NCBI GenBank assembly: GCA_027486655.1
Contig: JAIXOR010000087.1
Span: forward strand, 1-64,000
Direction: 5' to 3'
DNA length: 64,000 nucleotides
Source of the DNA: Verrucomicrobiaceae bacterium
GTDB taxonomy: Bacteria > Verrucomicrobiota > Verrucomicrobiia > Verrucomicrobiales > Akkermansiaceae
In this document: piece after piece, positions 26,475 through 34,129 of the stretch
How positions within the stretch are numbered: position 1 is the stretch's first letter
How the letters are laid out: every line of letters begins with the position of its first letter
Made by a program: the position numbers and the translations under genes
The notes under the pieces: model-generated
What the model saw: only the letters and a program-made list of their open reading frames with translations
Database searches by the model: none
Told to the model about the DNA's origin: nothing

Positions 26475-29369
26475 ATGAGCCCCTACCACGCGAAATACTA
26501 CGCCCACGAGCTCACCCGGACGGGTGGCGAGGGCGTGGACCGCCTCGGTCGGGCGCTCTTCGACGCCACCGTCACCCTCAATCCCCACCAGATCGAAGCC
26601 GCCCTCTTCGCCTTGCGTTCGCCTTTGTCGAAAGGCGCGCTGCTCGCCGACGAAGTTGGCCTCGGCAAAACCATCGAAGCCGGCCTCGTCCTCTGCCAAT
26701 CCTGGGCCGAGGGCCGCCGCAAGCTGCTCATCATCACTCCGGCCTCGCTGCGGAAACAATGGGCGCTCGAACTCCACGAAAAGTTCAACCTGCCCTCCGT
26801 CATCCTTGACGCCCACTCGGCCCGCGAGTTCCGGAAAGCGGGCCATGCCTTGCCCTTCGAGCAGCCGCAGATCGTCATCTGCTCCTACCACTACGCCGCG
26901 CGGATGGCCGCTGAAATCCAGCCGATCCCCTGGGACCTCGTCGTCATGGACGAGGCCCACAAGCTTCGCAACTGCCACCGCGAGAGCAACCGGCTTGGCC
27001 AAGCGATCAAGCAGGCCACCGCCGATCGCAAGAAGATCCTCCTCACCGCCACCCCGCTCCAAAACTCTCTGGTCGAGCTCTTCGGCCTCGCCTCGCTCAT
27101 CGACGAGCGCCTCTTCGGCGACCTGCCCACCTTCCGCACCCAGTTCGCCAATGCCGGCGGCGACCTGCCCGCCCTCCGCGAGCGCCTCGCCACCTTCTGC
27201 CACCGCACGCTCCGCAGCCAGGTGCTGGAGTATGTGAAATACACCGCCCGCCAGCTCCTCACCCAGCCCTTCACCCCCAGCGATGACGAGCACCGGCTTT
27301 ACGAAACCGTTTCTGCTTACCTCCAGCGCGACGATTGCTACGCCCTTCCACAGCGCCAGCGGCACCTGATCGTCCTGCTCGTTCGCAAGGTTCTCTCCTC
27401 CTCGCCCCGCGCCCTCGCCGGGACCCTGGAAATGATGCGCGACCGCCTGCTTCGCATCCAGCAGGAGGCGCAAAACAACGCCAGCCTCTTCGACCAGGTC
27501 CTCGCCGACGATCCGCTCGATGCCGACCTGCTCGACGAACTGCTCGAAGACGCCGAGGACGCGGAAATCAGCGCCGACGAGGAAAACGAGGCCGCCTCGG
27601 AAGCGCCCGCTGCTGAGCCCATCGATCCGGCGAAGCTGAAAAAGGAAATCTCCGAGCTCGACGACTACATCCGCTGGGCCCGCAGCATCGGCGTGGACAC
27701 CAAGTCCCGCACCCTTCTCAAGGCGCTCGATATCGGCTTCGCCCAAATGGCGGCGATGAACCCGCCCGCCCCGCGCAAGGCGGTGATCTTCACCGAATCC
27801 CGCCGCACCCAGGCCTTCCTCAAGGACTTCCTCGAAGCCAACGGCCATGCCGGAAAAGTCATCCTCTTCAACGGCTCGAACAACGATCCGGACTCGAAAC
27901 GCATTTTCGACACCTGGTGCGCCGTCAATCGCGAAAGCGGCCGCATGACCGGCTCGCGGCCGGTGGATTCCCGTACCGCCATCATTGATGCCTTCCGCAA
28001 CTCGGCGGAAATCCTCATCGCCACCGAAGCCGCCGCCGAAGGGATCAACCTGCAGTTCTGCGCCCTGATCATCAATTTCGACCTGCCCTGGAATCCGCAG
28101 CGCATCGAACAACGCATCGGCCGCTGCCACCGCTACGGCCAGCAGCACGACGTGGTGGTCATCAATTTCCTCAACCAGCGCAACGAGGCCGACCTCCGCG
28201 TCCACCAGCTGCTGGAAACGAAGTTCCACCTGTTCTCCACGCTCTTCGACAACTCCGACGACGTCCTCGGCCTCGTCGATGGCACCATCGATTTTGAGCG
28301 GCGCGTGCTCGACATCTATCAGCAGTGCCGCTCCGCCGATGAGATCAACGCCGCCTTCGACTCACTCCAGGACGAGCTGAAAGCCCAGATCGAATCCCGC
28401 ATGCGGGAAACCCGAAGGCTCCTCCTCGATCACTTCGACGAGGACGTGCACGACCGCCTGCAAGTCCGCCTCGATGGCGCGAAGCAGCAGCTCGACCGCA
28501 TCGGCCGACTGTTCTGGGCGCTCACCCGTTTCGAGCTGAACGAGCACGCGGCCTTCGACGACGCCGAACTCGCCTTCGACCTCCATCAGTCGCCCATCAC
28601 CGCCGCCCAGCCCGGGCACTACCGGCTCATTTCAAAAGGCCGCGCCAACAATCCCGGCGACTTCCTTTATCGACTCAACCACCCGCTCGGCGAACACACG
28701 ATCGCCCAAGGCAAAGCCCACGCCTGCCCGCTTGCCGGACTCACCTTCGACATCAGCGCCCATCCGACCAAGGTCAGCGTCGTCGAGGAACTGAAGGGCA
28801 AATCCGGCTGGCTCACCTTGCAGCACCTCCGCATCGATTCGCTGGAACGCGAGGACCACCTGCTCTTCTCCGCCTTCGACGACGAGGGCCGCGACCTCGA
28901 TCAGGAAACCTGCGAACGGATCTTCGCCATCGATGGCAGCGCCCGCGAAATCGAGGCGCCCACCGCAGCACCCGAACGCCTCGCCCAAGAAGCCGCCCGC
29001 CACGTTGCCGCCACGCTCAATCGCTCGCTGGAAACCAACCACCGCCATTTCCAACAGGCCCGCGACCAGCTCGACCGCTGGGCCGAGGACATGGAGCTCG
29101 CCTCGCAGAAGCAGCTCGAAGATCTGAAACGCCAGATCCGCGACCTCCAGCGCCGCTCCCGCCTGGCCCCCACGCTTCAGGAGGAAAGGGCGATGCAGGA
29201 CCAGATCCTCAAGCTGGAGCAACAGAAACGCCGCCAGCGCCAGCGCATCTACGACATCGAGGACGAGATCGAAGAAAAACGCAAATCCCTCGTCGCCGCG
29301 CTCGAAGCCCGGCTCCAGCAGAAAACCCTAACAACCCCGCTGTTCACCATCCGGTGGAGAGTCGCCTGA
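26475..29369 (+). CDS. SNF2-family helicase of a defence island
   Basis: 964 aa from ATG 26475. Two-domain SF2 helicase: Walker A DEVGLGKTIEAGL (about 59-71), Walker B VVMDEAHKLRN (about 157-166), motif III LTATPLQNS, motif V ATEAAAEGINLQF and motif VI QRIGRCHRYGQ. A long charged coiled coil (about 860-950) precedes the C-terminal TPLFTIRWRVA. An insert of acidic residues (LLEDAEDAEISADEENEAA) lies in the middle. Such helicases, related to the DrmD/HepA group, accompany modification methylases in restriction and DISARM-like systems. Here the gene looks intact, but the methylase and nuclease genes directly downstream are wrecked. Cytoplasmic. Confidence 0.9.
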   Translation: MSPYHAKYYAHELTRTGGEGVDRLGRALFDATVTLNPHQIEAALFALRSPLSKGALLADEVGLGKTIEAGLVLCQSWAEGRRKLLIITPASLRKQWALELHEKFNLPSVILDAHSAREFRKAGHALPFEQPQIVICSYHYAARMAAEIQPIPWDLVVMDEAHKLRNCHRESNRLGQAIKQATADRKKILLTATPLQNSLVELFGLASLIDERLFGDLPTFRTQFANAGGDLPALRERLATFCHRTLRSQVLEYVKYTARQLLTQPFTPSDDEHRLYETVSAYLQRDDCYALPQRQRHLIVLLVRKVLSSSPRALAGTLEMMRDRLLRIQQEAQNNASLFDQVLADDPLDADLLDELLEDAEDAEISADEENEAASEAPAAEPIDPAKLKKEISELDDYIRWARSIGVDTKSRTLLKALDIGFAQMAAMNPPAPRKAVIFTESRRTQAFLKDFLEANGHAGKVILFNGSNNDPDSKRIFDTWCAVNRESGRMTGSRPVDSRTAIIDAFRNSAEILIATEAAAEGINLQFCALIINFDLPWNPQRIEQRIGRCHRYGQQHDVVVINFLNQRNEADLRVHQLLETKFHLFSTLFDNSDDVLGLVDGTIDFERRVLDIYQQCRSADEINAAFDSLQDELKAQIESRMRETRRLLLDHFDEDVHDRLQVRLDGAKQQLDRIGRLFWALTRFELNEHAAFDDAELAFDLHQSPITAAQPGHYRLISKGRANNPGDFLYRLNHPLGEHTIAQGKAHACPLAGLTFDISAHPTKVSVVEELKGKSGWLTLQHLRIDSLEREDHLLFSAFDDEGRDLDQETCERIFAIDGSAREIEAPTAAPERLAQEAARHVAATLNRSLETNHRHFQQARDQLDRWAEDMELASQKQLEDLKRQIRDLQRRSRLAPTLQEERAMQDQILKLEQQKRRQRQRIYDIEDEIEEKRKSLVAALEARLQQKTLTTPLFTIRWRVA

Positions 29370-30508
29370 AACCTGGGATGAAACACCAATCTGCAAACTC
29401 CATTGGGCGAACGCGGACCAGTACTACATCAAGTCCTCCGAATCCTTCCGCGACTACACCTTCAAACTCGGCCCCGCGCCCAAGCCCCAATCGGAAATCG
29501 GCAATCTTCAATCGGCAATTGAAGACACCCGCCCCTCCGTCACCTTCAAGCTCGTCGAGGCCGACGTCGAAAAGGACAACAACAAGGCCGTCACTGGCCA
29601 GGAACGCCGCTTCGTCTATCAGGGCCTTGTCTCTTCTTCTCTTCCTGAAAACTCAAAACTGAACGCTGAAAACTTGGTGCTCGGTTTCACCTACGCCCCG
29701 GTCGGCAAAAAGGAGAAGCAGGCCGACCTGAACGCAAGCGCCGCCGAGCAGATCCTCACGACCCACGCCAAAGGCCCCTTCACCGGCCTCGCCGCCAACG
29801 ATCCCACCTACACCGTCAAAGGCAAAACCCGCACGATTCTCGCCAAGCACCTCGCCGAATACACCGGCAAGAACAGCTTTGATTACTTCATCCACAAGGA
29901 CCTCGGCGGCTTCCTCCGCCGCGAGCTGGACTTCTTCATCAAGAACGAGGTGGTCCACCTCGACGACCTCGACGACGCCCCGGAAGCCAACTGGCGCGAA
30001 GTCCGCGCGAAGCTGAAGGCGCTGCGGACCATCGCCGGAAAAATCATCCGCTTCCTCGCCCAGATCGAGGACTTCCAGAAAAAGCTCTGGCTCAAGAAGA
30101 AGTTCGTCACCGCCTGCGACTACGTCGTCACCCTCGACCGCATTCCGGAGGAACTCTATCCGGAAATCGCCGCCTGCGACGCGCAACGCGAGGAATGGGT
30201 GAGGCTGTTCGCGATTGATGAGATCAAGGGGGACTTGGGAAGAGCGGGGTATTCGGTGCCGCTGACGGTGGATTTTTTGAGGGAGAATCAGTTTCTCCCG
30301 TTGGATACGCGCAGGCTTCCATCGCAGACAGCTAACAAACTCAAATCCGCTTCGGGGACTCCCGATGGACTGGTGATGGACTCGGAGAACCTCCAAGCGC
30401 TCCACCTAGGTCGGCTTCGATTCAAGGATTCGATCGAGTCGATCTATATCGATCCACCCTACAATACTGGAAGCGATGGCTTTGCTTACAAAGACCAGTT
30501 CCAACACC
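29332..30508 (+). pseudogene. Type III-like modification methyltransferase, truncated at both ends
   Basis: An open frame follows TAA at 29329 but has no ATG, GTG or TTG until 29674, deep inside the conserved sequence, so the 5' end is gone. The frame reads CKLHWANADQYYIKSSESF, then EADVEKDNNKAVTGQERRF, and leads to the catalytic block of N6-adenine methylases, SIESIYIDPPYNTGSDGFAY (DPPY motif), after which YKDQFQH should continue into the rest of the methylase but does not. At about 30500-30508 the sequence jumps to another gene in another frame. This frame then runs out at 30609. Two tandem low-complexity inserts lie at 29488-29521 and 29647-29674. Confidence 0.85.
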
Positions 30509-31321
30509 CGCTTCGACAAGGTGCGGAACTGGCAACTCATCGCCGAGGCCTTGCTGAAAGGGTACTGCGAGCGCCTTTACAAAAGCCGCAAACAGGGTTG
30601 GGAAAGTGAACACGCGGAAGCCTTCGACCTCGGCCCCGGTGATCCGAATTTCGAACAGGAATACCGTTTTCTCGTCAAGGCCGAGAACCAGCTCGTCGGC
30701 CAGATCAAGGATCTCGCGGCGCAGGTGAGAAAACCGGGTTTCAAGAAGTGCTCCTTCGCCCAGGTCAGCGCGATGACTTGGGACGGCCATCTTTACTCAC
30801 CGCTCGTCCACATCGCCGGCAACTCGCTGGTGACCGTCAGCCCGGTGAGTTTGAACGAAGGCGAGTGGAACTTCATCAACGACCTGCGATCGCATCACGA
30901 AAACAAGCCCGGCTTCTTTGAGGGTAAGGAACTCTTCGTCCTGCGCAACAAGAGCAAGAAGGGCATCGGTTTCTTCGAGGCAGGGAACTTCTATCCGGAT
31001 TTCCTCGTCTGGCTCATCGTGGGGAAGAAGCAATACCTCAGCTTCGTCGATCCCAAGGGCCTGCGGAACACCCAGGGTTTCGACGACCCGAAGATCGCCT
31101 TCGCCTCGAAGATCAAGGAGATCGAAGCCCGCCTCGCCAAGTCCACGCCGGGCCTGGTCTTGAATTCGTTCATTCTCTCCACCACCTCGTTCCGCCAGAT
31201 CCACTGGTGGGACAGGCTGAAGACCCCGGAGGACTTCGCCGCAGCGCACGTGTTGCTCCAGAAGGACGAGCCGGAGAGCTACATCGGGAAGATGTTTGAG
31301 CTTATGCTGGCCGTTCACTGA
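30500..31321 (+). pseudogene. C-terminal fragment of a Type III-like restriction (Res) subunit
   Basis: The frame from NTRFDKVRNWQLIAEALL to the stop at 31321 (about 273 codons) matches the C-terminal end of Res-type helicase-nucleases: QVSAMTWDGHLYSPLVHIAG, GNFYPDFLVWLIVGKKQYLS and FVDPKGLRNTQGFDDPK. The PDFLVWL...FVDPKG stretch is the endonuclease-like core of such proteins. All helicase motifs are missing. It joins the methylase fragment at the shared bases TTCCAACAC. An ATG at 30476 could give a 281-aa product beginning out of frame, but an active restriction enzyme is not expected. Confidence 0.85.
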
Positions 31322-31464
31322 GACTGCGGTCGTCCAAGGCCTCCACCTCAGGGCGGACCTGTCGCAAGATTTGGTTCCATGCGACAGCAGCGGGTCGCTC
31401 TGATTTTCGACCAGCTCTGTTGTTGGATTCAGACTGGCCCAAGGCCCGGATTGCCAAGTGCCGA

Positions 31465-31590
31465 AAGCGGAAGGTCAGAGTCCGCGATGGCGACCACCCC
31501 CTCGAAAACCTCCGCCATGAGGACCCGACCTGGAAGGTGAGGCTCAGCGACGAGGAAGTCCCGAGACGGATGGGGGTGGGCTGCGAGTGA
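31465..31590 (+). repeat. direct repeat flanking a toxin-antitoxin pair, left copy
   Basis: Starts AAGCGGAAGGTCAGAGTCCG and ends CTGCGAGTGA. Second copy at 32203-32294 lacks about 35 internal bases. Translation (RKVRVRDGD..LENLR.E...PRRMG) suggests both are 3' ends of a lost gene. The rest of the gap 31322-31664 holds no gene. Confidence 0.65.
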
Positions 31591-31664
31591 TTCGGATTCG
31601 TCCATCCAGGCCCACTTTGAATAACCGCTTGCGAAAGAGCCCGAAAAGGCTACGTTGTAGCCCT

Positions 31665-31892
31665 ATGAGAGATGCAGTCGTCAGAGCCCGTGTCCAACCT
31701 GACCTCAAGGCCGATGCGGAGAAGGTTTTTGAAACCTTGGGAATCAATACTACGGAAGCGATCCGGATGTTTTTGAGCCAAGTCCGCCTGCGTGGCGGCC
31801 TGCCCTTTGCGGTCGAAGTTCCGAAGAATGAAGACCTTTTGGTTTCCGGCCGGATGAGACAAGAAGCCCTGGATTCCCTCTATGACGACTAA
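31665..31892 (+). CDS. RelB/DinJ-family antitoxin
   Basis: 75 aa from ATG 31665. Ribbon-helix-helix start (MRDAVVRARVQPDLKADAEK) and the family helix LGINTTEAIRMFLSQVRLRGGLPF, followed by the toxin-neutralising tail. Overlaps the toxin gene by 11 bases. The antitoxin should repress the pair and bind the toxin. Antitoxin and toxin come from different classical families (RelB/DinJ with MazF/PemK). Confidence 0.85.
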   Translation: MRDAVVRARVQPDLKADAEKVFETLGINTTEAIRMFLSQVRLRGGLPFAVEVPKNEDLLVSGRMRQEALDSLYDD

Positions 31893-32199
31893 GCCCGGAG
31901 AAGTGTATCGGGTGGACCTGGGGATGGGAGGCAAGGTCCGGATGATGCTGGTGGTTTCCCGCATGGATCCGGATGCCCCGCGCGCCCTCAGCCTTTGCGT
32001 GCCGATCACGACCGCGCACCGGGGTTCCGCTTACGAAGTCGAACTCCCTCCCCGTCCGTTTTTCAGGGAGAAGAGTTTCGCCAACGTCCAAGGTCTTCAG
32101 GCGATCCAACATCACGAACTGGAGGGACCGCTGGGTGTCGTTTTTGGCGAGCCACTGGAGAAGGTGAAAGCCGCGCTGCGCCACGCGATGGAACTCTGA
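31882..32199 (+). CDS. PemK/MazF-like toxin
   Basis: 105 aa from ATG 31882. MazF-fold features: GEVYRVDLGMGGKVRMMLVVS, the strand VPITTAHRGSAYEVEL and SFANVQGLQAIQHHELEGPLG. These toxins are endoribonucleases that cut mRNA. Overlap with the antitoxin gives coupled translation. Ends three bases before the right flanking repeat. Length is normal. Confidence 0.85.
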   Translation: MTTKPGEVYRVDLGMGGKVRMMLVVSRMDPDAPRALSLCVPITTAHRGSAYEVELPPRPFFREKSFANVQGLQAIQHHELEGPLGVVFGEPLEKVKAALRHAMEL

Positions 32200-32202
32200 T
32201 CC

Positions 32203-32294
32203 AAGCGGAAGGTCAGAGTCCGCGATGGCGACCCCCTCCTCGAAAACCTCCGCCGCGAGGAGTTCCCGAGACGGATGGGGTGGGCCGCGAGTGA
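32203..32294 (+). repeat. direct repeat flanking a toxin-antitoxin pair, right copy
   Basis: Shorter copy of 31465-31590, beginning with the same AAGCGGAAGGTCAGAGTCCG and ending GCGAGTGA. The two copies bracket exactly the antitoxin and toxin genes. Confidence 0.65.
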
Positions 32295-32308
32295 AGGCCC
32301 TTCACCTT

Positions 32309-32465
32309 GGACTGCGGCAGCCTGCTGCCGCTTTGAGCCCCGCAGCCTGCTGCGGGGAGCGAATGAGAAGCCAAAGCGAAGCCATCGATGGCTCCCCTTT
32401 CACCCTCCATCCACCCCGGGCCAGCAGGCTGGCTCCGGAAAAGCGGCAGCAGGCTGCCGCAGTCC
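32309..32465. repeat. REP/BIME element, left copy
   Basis: A 157-bp composite of hairpins whose ends are inverted: GGACTGCGGCAGCCTGCTGC at the left and the complement ending GCTGCCGCAGTCC at 32465. Internal stems are GCGGCAG-CCTG-CTGCCGC (32314-32331), CCCCGCAG-CCTG-CTGCGGGG (32338-32357) and GCCAG-CAGG-CTGGC (32420-32433). All have CCTG or CAGG loops. Near-identical unit at 33877-34031. Confidence 0.85.
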
Positions 32466-32511
32466 AAATCGATGCTTGCCGCCTGACCCATATTCCTGTA
32501 TCTATTGCCCC

Positions 32512-32751
32512 ATGAAAACCACGATTGATCTGCCCGATGAAGTGCTGGTGAAGGCGAAGATGCTCGCGGCAGAGCGGCGAACGACGCTGCGTGAACTTGT
32601 GTTGGAAGGACTGAAACGGGTGACCGAAACTCCGCCGGAAGCCGAGCAGGCAAAGCGCAAGGCGGCTTTCAAACGCCTGCTCAAGGCCATGCAGGCCAGC
32701 AACACGGAACCGATGGTTCCATTGAAACGGGAGGAGATTTATGACCGGTGA
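32512..32751 (+). CDS. VapB-type antitoxin
   Basis: 79 aa from ATG 32512. MKTTIDLPDEVLVKAKMLAA is a ribbon-helix-helix DNA-binding start; RRTTLRELVLEGLKRV completes the dimer. The C-terminal tail (MVPLKREEIYDR) would wrap the toxin. Overlaps the PIN gene by 11 bases. Confidence 0.88.
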   Translation: MKTTIDLPDEVLVKAKMLAAERRTTLRELVLEGLKRVTETPPEAEQAKRKAAFKRLLKAMQASNTEPMVPLKREEIYDR

Positions 32752-33160
32752 GGTCTTTTTGGATTCGAACGTGCTACTTTATGCCTGTTCAACGGCCCAC
32801 GAAGACGCCGCCAAGCGGAAGGTGGCGGAGGGCCTCATTCTTCAATGTTCGTTCGCCCTTTCCGCCCAGGTTTTGCAGGAATTCATCGCCAACGCGCTGC
32901 GCAGGCCCCGGCTCGGGATCTCGGAAACCAACATAGACGCCACCCTGCAGCTGGCCAGCATGGTCCGGGTGCAGCCCGTCACCCATGAATTGGTAATTTC
33001 CGCAGTCATCCTGCGCCGCCGCTACCGACTATTCCATTGGGATGCCACCATCATTGCCGCTGCGGCGGAACTTGGCTGCGGCACCCTTTATTCGGAAGAC
33101 ATGGCCGATGGTCAGGACTACGGCGGTGTCCGCGTGGTGAATCCCTTCAAAGGAGTATGA
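32741..33160 (+). CDS. VapC-type PIN-domain toxin
   Basis: 139 aa from ATG 32741. PIN acidic residues: VFLDSNVLLYA (D near residue 8), the Glu in QVLQEFIANAL, FHWDATIIAAA and YSEDMADGQ. A PIN nuclease of this type usually cuts tRNA or rRNA. Paired with the overlapping VapB. Normal length. Confidence 0.9.
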   Translation: MTGEVFLDSNVLLYACSTAHEDAAKRKVAEGLILQCSFALSAQVLQEFIANALRRPRLGISETNIDATLQLASMVRVQPVTHELVISAVILRRRYRLFHWDATIIAAAAELGCGTLYSEDMADGQDYGGVRVVNPFKGV

Positions 33161-33278: not shown

Positions 33279-33860
33279 ATGGAGAATTTGCCGGATGATG
33301 ATCAGTGCGCCAAAGGAACCCGGCACTGGCCTCACGCACCGCCTCATCGTCTATCCCTGAGCGGGGTCTATTTCCTAACCGCCCGCGCGGCAGAGGGTCG
33401 GCATCTCCTAGCAGACGACGCCATGAAGGATTGGTTTCAAGACAAGCTCTTCACCCTCACCCATGAATTCGGTTGGACTCTCGAAGCCTGGGCCATCCTC
33501 TCCAACCACTATCATCTCATCGGCCACAGCCCGAAAGGATCCGACGGCGCGGAATCTCTCCGCGAGATGATCCGCAAACTTCACAGTCTAACAACTCAAG
33601 AACTCAACCGTCGCGAGAACCAACCCGGCCGCTCCCGGCTGTGGCAGAATTTCCGGGAAACCTGCCTGACGCATCAGCGGAGCTATCTCGCAAGACTTCA
33701 TTACGTCCATCAGAACGCCGTGCACCACAAGCTCGTGGCAGTGGGGTCCGACTACCCATGGTGCAGCGCTGCTGAATTCAAAAAGGCCGTCACGCCCGCC
33801 TGGCTGAAAACCATCACCAGCTTTCCATACGATGAAATCGCCACCAAGGATGGAGACTGA
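33279..33860 (+). mobile_element. RAYT (REP-associated tyrosine transposase)
   Basis: 193 aa from ATG 33279. Y1/HUH nuclease: metal-binding His pair in AILSNHYHLIGHSPKG, and the catalytic Tyr within SYLARLHYVHQNAVHHKLV. YFLTARAAEGRHLL is the N-terminal strand of the family. C-terminal DYPWCSAAEFKKAV is typical of single-copy RAYTs. Its flanking REP/BIME copies (32309-32465, 33877-34031) should be its substrates. It looks intact. A TCTAACAA site is at 33587-33594. Confidence 0.9.
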
Positions 33861-33876
33861 ACTGGGACTGAACCTT

Positions 33877-34031
33877 GGACTGCGGCAGCCTGCTGCCGCT
33901 TTGAGCCCCGCAGCCTGCTGCGGGGAGCGGATGAATCGCGAAAGAAAAGCCCCTCGTCCTCCCTTTCACCCCCCAGCCACCCCGGGCCAGCAGGCTGGCT
34001 CCGGAAAAGCGGCAGCAGGCTGCCGCAGTCC
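33877..34031. repeat. REP/BIME element, right copy
   Basis: Same hairpin order and ends as 32309-32465, beginning GGACTGCGGCAGCCTGCTGC. It starts 17 bases after the transposase stop. The segment between the second and third hairpins differs most between copies. A 12-bp palindrome TCGCCTAGGCGA lies further right at 34098-34109. Confidence 0.85.
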
Positions 34032-34129
34032 AAGGGGCCACATCGTGATCATTTAAGCACAGTTGAGCATGGCTGGCGAAACCGGGCGAGGTCGGGTTCG
34101 CCTAGGCGATTTGCGGGACATGATCGGGC

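Follow-up and report, generated by a model that had tools for sequence, protein, structure and literature searches.

The window analysed here, a stretch of 64,000 nucleotides, lies on contig C70 of a draft genome of 5.33 Mb (87 contigs, 98.5% complete). Family scans found a whole SNF2-like helicase gene at 26475–29369, a fragment of a Type III methylase and a fragment of a Type III nuclease. In intact Type III systems, Mod methylates one strand of an asymmetric site, and unmethylated DNA is cut by the Mod-Res complex, which uses ATP. A search for relatives returned one close intact locus, L013, and dozens of more distant loci across phyla; relatives on plasmids or viral contigs were only distant ones. 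L013 comes from the Verrucomicrobia MAG PH2015_07D_62_35, which also carries the label G124. The intact L013 proteins were mapped onto the window by tblastn. Helicase residues 1–964 matched 26475–29366 and Mod residues 150–507 matched 29395–30507. Res residues 798–1065 matched 30509–31312 in another frame than Mod, and Mod residues 941–994 followed. This map agrees with the first-pass annotation, which had described Type III-like mod and res genes joined out of frame. Judged from its genes, the region 26475–31590 is very probably what remains, after decay, of a Type III restriction-modification locus of the Eco86II/BspHIV kind, whose three genes are an SNF2-like helicase, mod and res.

The helicase gene (+ strand) encodes 964 amino acids and corresponds to the additional gene that lies 5′ of mod in Type III systems with the order helicase-mod-res. 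It is still intact, as had been noted earlier, and all of its motifs are present (GLGKT, DEAH, TATP and QRIGRCHRYGQ). Its product shares 90% amino acid identity with the L013 helicase. On the branch leading to the window, the ratio of amino acid to silent changes was 40:45, compared with 19:56 for L013 (Fisher p=0.005), a modest excess measured with one main outgroup. This excess hints at relaxed selection, and the helicase is probably an intact orphan under such relaxed selection.

The Mod fragment (29395–30507, + strand) covers residues 150–507 of 994. It is 78% identical to L013 Mod in the tblastn comparison and matches positions 147–518 of 1057 of the PADLOC model MTase_III (E=1.2e-75). 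Catalytic motif IV (DPPY) is kept; AdoMet motif I (FxG), which reads FAGSG in intact Mod, is absent, and residues 508–940 are missing. The frame is open from 29332 to a stop codon at 30607–30609 and contains no ATG; the only early starts are TTG at 29674 and GTG at 29677. Homology stops 16 residues past DPPY, at FQH. The methylase thus lacks a start and ends right after the DPPY block, as first described. Homology to the Eco86II/BspHIV group is clear, and by its sequence this Mod is the broken relic of a member of that group, predicted not to work. Two in-frame low-complexity inserts (29489–29525 and 29644–29676; e.g. CTGAAAACTCAAAACTGAACGCTGAAAAC) are absent from L013. Heptamer runs of the TGAAAACTGAAAACTGAA type were found elsewhere in the genome.

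The helicase and Mod fragments meet at a joint (joint 1, 29370–29394) that consists of a short remnant of the helicase-mod spacer followed by Mod codon ~150; codons 1–149 and the remaining spacer are lost. In a pairwise alignment to L013, the helicase side extended to 29382, ~13 bases past the stop codon, and the Mod side began at 29395. This passage from the helicase stop to Mod residue ~150 (29383–29394) had been overlooked in the first-pass annotation.

The nuclease fragment lies in an ORF of 281 amino acids (30476–31321, + strand), which starts with an ATG inside mod. About 11 residues come from out-of-frame mod and the joint, and the remainder runs from Res residue ~797 to the end. The Res part is 91% identical to L013 Res (tblastn). 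A complete Res carries Walker A, DExH and C-terminal PD-(D/E)XK motifs. GSGKT and DEGH were lost here with residues 1–794, and the PD-(D/E)XK nuclease motif (PDF...VDPK) is complete. Its residues, near-invariant in the family, are kept, as is nearly every other conserved residue of the Res end. A predicted structure of the Res end was good only in the nuclease part (pLDDT about 80–90). Its fold resembles PD-(D/E)XK nucleases, including Bax1 and Can2 at Z 6–7, with values up to 7.4. Foldseek alone gave no significant match for this model, and no relative of Res with a solved structure was found by sequence up to E 10.

Neither the Mod nor the Res fragment contains internal stop codons or frameshifts, and neither has a significant excess of amino acid change, as would be expected of a recent break. 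Some product could be made from the Res-end ORF and used, given its ATG, its nuclease residues and the open fragments. A reduced but working defence module was therefore considered, in which the intact helicase and a free-standing 281-residue PD-(D/E)XK nuclease would act without methylation and the toxin-antitoxin pair described below would stabilise the segment from its place between duplicated Mod ends. The ATG at 30476 with GGAAG just upstream, the retained catalytic residues and the well-modelled Bax1- and Can2-like nuclease part all fit such a module. However, the arrangement of helicase plus nuclease fragment occurs in one genome only, a recent break alone also yields such a fragment, and the structural likeness stays below the level at which it would be specific (Z below 8). 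We consider this module very improbable.

The change of frame from Mod to Res takes place at 30499–30508 (joint 2). DNA of other genomes of the family aligned only from 30506–30508 onward, which places the joint correctly within a few bases and agrees with the earlier location at 30499–30507. Among 260 family genomes compared, the joint is unique to this one. The first-pass annotation had further expected a 9-bp sequence at the joint to occur in both parent genes. This expectation is without support, as the sequence is absent from the nearest Res relatives, those of L013 and G345. The Res residue at this point is S (TCC) in the window and mostly E among about 60 relatives; the closest Res genes, those of L013 and of G345 from the same genus, have GAGAGCGGCCGC and GAGCCAACCCGC, respectively. 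The shared piece was therefore probably about 2 bp when measured against a G345-like Res, with 9 bp as the upper bound; the true parent may differ from G345.

The sequence that follows res, 31322–31464 (joint 3), leads to a Mod end that begins at about 31453–31465. It gave no blastn match in any relative locus compared and matched no known downstream DNA. This joint, from the Res end to Mod residue ~941, had also escaped the first-pass annotation. The first Mod 3′ end, copy A (31465–31590, + strand), contains part of residues 941–994 with the stop codon and lies downstream of Res. It shares 85% DNA identity with L013 12197–12298 and carries a 27-bp in-frame deletion between GGCGA repeats. Copy B (32203–32294, + strand) carries a 33-bp deletion between CGAGGA repeats. 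The 27-bp deletion is common to both copies, which makes them recent duplicates. Copy B alone runs on into a REP-like element, as the Mod end does in L013. Between the copies sits a RelB/MazF-like toxin-antitoxin pair (31668–32199, + strand). It comprises a RelB/DinJ-family antitoxin (31668–31892; Pfam RelB 2.7e-11, NCBIfam RelB_DinJ above cutoff) and a PemK/MazF-family toxin (31882–32199; Pfam PemK_toxin 5.9e-8).

The gene order helicase-mod-res was found in every locus in which all three genes could be placed (50-plus), sometimes with extra genes between, so intact relatives with the three in a row do exist as had been anticipated. In none of these 50-plus intact loci does a Mod end lie downstream of Res. 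Its presence there in the window indicates that a duplication or transposition also happened. By the sequence there are at least three joints, and a single deletion cannot explain the locus.

The shortest history that we can give would consist of four events, in an order that is itself conjectural. The DNA between the Mod end and a point shortly after res would have been duplicated, with transposition as an alternative; a Res-to-Mod joint is a typical product of tandem duplication, which is why this step enters the history. A deletion would then have removed the DNA from Mod residue 508 to Res residue ~795, and another the start of Mod. The RelB/MazF-like pair would have entered the Mod end, accompanied by a 126-bp duplication. 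Both small deletions found in the Mod ends are flanked by direct repeats of 5–6 bp, so deletion between very short repeats may fairly be supposed for the locus. Together, these rearrangements would have stripped the Mod start, the half of Mod with the AdoMet motif and the entire ATPase half of Res. Neither methylation nor ATP-dependent restriction would be expected from what is left. The most likely account is that a restriction system of a known kind, lying inside a foreign segment, was broken recently and has undergone ordinary decay in several steps.

Because the genome is a draft in 87 contigs, it might be argued that the organism has whole mod and res genes, which the assembler joined falsely. 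However, no contig of the whole assembly carries the missing Mod 508–940 (~1.3 kb) or Res 1–794 (~2.4 kb). Joint 2 has no long repeat able to mislead an assembler, and the two further joints and the internal small deletions agree with real breakage. The missing parts and the uniqueness of the joint among the 260 genomes count against an assembler mistake, although they are no substitute for reads, and we attach very little weight to this explanation. A further proposal, that of the first-pass annotation, is a chimera made by one deletion between 9-bp direct repeats. TTCCAACAC does make sense in both frames, and one Mod-to-Res deletion would account for joint 2; in L013 coordinates it would span about 5.7 kb, of which 1.7 kb is an ATPase insertion that the parent may have lacked. 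The proposal leaves unexplained, however, how Mod lost its start and how a Mod end came to lie after Res and to be duplicated, and the 9-bp sequence is absent from the Res genes of the nearest relatives. As a full account the proposal is already contradicted, and it has scarcely any chance of being right. What holds of that interpretation is the chimera and the intact helicase.

With stepwise decay as the preferred reading, the locus illustrates clearly how a Type III system of three genes can decay: the methylase and the nuclease have gone together and the accessory helicase is left. Such a joint loss avoids a nuclease without its protecting methylase.

The family was named from homology to E. 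coli NCTC86, from gene order and from the description of Eco86II. Eco86II, which is experimentally characterised and comes from E. coli NCTC86, and BspHIV belong to the m4C Type III systems and carry, 5′ of mod, an additional gene for a helicase-like ATPase (Murray et al. 2021, PMC8259958). That gene occurs near mod and res in >500 genomes, is dispensable for methyltransferase activity and has an unclear role (PMC8259958). Natural orphans like the one described here could help show whether this accessory helicase does anything on its own, a question raised by the Eco86II study. The three genes recur in NCTC86 in unchanged order, and in the window the SF2/SNF2 helicase-like gene likewise adjoins the mod fragment immediately on its 5′ side. 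Compared with NCTC86, the window products are 51% (helicase, over 976 columns of the alignment with the one adjoining Eco86II mod), 38% (Mod fragment) and 33% (Res fragment) identical. The corresponding values for the full L013 proteins are 52, 36 and 37%. In contrast to Eco86II, the window keeps only the helicase whole and has Mod and Res as fragments, and its group is assigned from the genes, not from the methylated base (m4C or m6A).

The helicase best matches DrmD models of DISARM (NCBIfam DISARM_DrmD_b), but the score is 655 against a cutoff of 950, and its partners are mod and res. A class 1 DISARM locus, with DrmD, DrmMI, DrmA, DrmB and DrmC together, was considered and rejected: the DrmD models score below cutoff, the near neighbours are the mod and res fragments and toxin-antitoxin genes, and in relatives they are mod and res.

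The segment is foreign in character. Between 26 and 34 kb its G+C content is mostly 0.57–0.65, and that of the flanks is about 0.63–0.69, mostly about 0.67. A REP-like palindromic element of 163 bp (32304–32467) sits where it does in L013 with respect to the Mod stop. A gene for a REP-associated tyrosine transposase (RAYT) follows at 33279–33860 on the + strand (NCBIfam REP_Tyr_transpos, 2.6e-22; its 79.3 bits fall just short of the cutoff of 80); its region shares 75% DNA identity with L013 4750–5489. A second REP copy lies directly after it (33872–34033). These are the only two copies in the genome, both in this segment, and a test of six further genomes from the two genera found none. G124 has 19 copies, and 14 of these lie in the 17 kb that surround its intact Type III locus (contig C7, 63465–80867). 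The lower G+C content, the restriction of REP to this segment, its clustering at the intact locus of L013 and the RAYT gene point to an L013-like source, from which the segment was most likely acquired horizontally along with its repeats. The two loci are alike in the helicase gene (88% DNA identity) and in having the REP element and related RAYT genes nearby, but in L013 mod and res are intact and a DUF4143 ATPase gene lies between them. In both genomes the REP-like element clusters near the Type III locus, not genome-wide, and it seems to travel with it. After the first REP element, at 32509–33160, there is a second toxin-antitoxin-like pair; it combines a short protein, weakly matched as ribbon-helix-helix-like, with a VapC-type PIN-domain protein. 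The gene in the downstream flank is poorly conserved in relatives.

A search of the rest of the genome for the missing Mod and Res parts gave a single find, a Mod start (residues 2–145) on contig C15 (G000 C15 92773–93204; L100 8762–9202). It is 78% identical to L014 and 63% to L013, and its neighbours are a metallo-beta-lactamase-fold gene and a Fic-like gene. From these genes, C15 looks like the site of a second, L014-like decayed locus in the same genome. The C15 Mod breaks within about 14 bp of where the Mod fragment of the window begins, and upstream of it there is a weak 40-bp match to the helicase end. The two parts could thus come from one Mod split by rearrangement, but they lean to different relatives. 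In L014 (4154–9285), a large RecD-like helicase and a metallo-beta-lactamase-fold protein are encoded between helicase and mod. The intergenic spaces of helicase-mod-res loci hold different extra genes in different relatives.

Duplication of a gene end over ~100 bp was observed in three cases. The first is the Mod 3′ end around the RelB/MazF pair (31465–32294 of the window). The second is the Res 5′ end around the DUF4143 ATPase gene of L013 (12483–12583 and 14138–14239, 84% identical). The third, on contig C15, is the 3′ end of a helicase-like gene (L100 9198–9303 and 9383–9488). The three duplications may possibly reflect a shared mode of inserting genes into defence loci.
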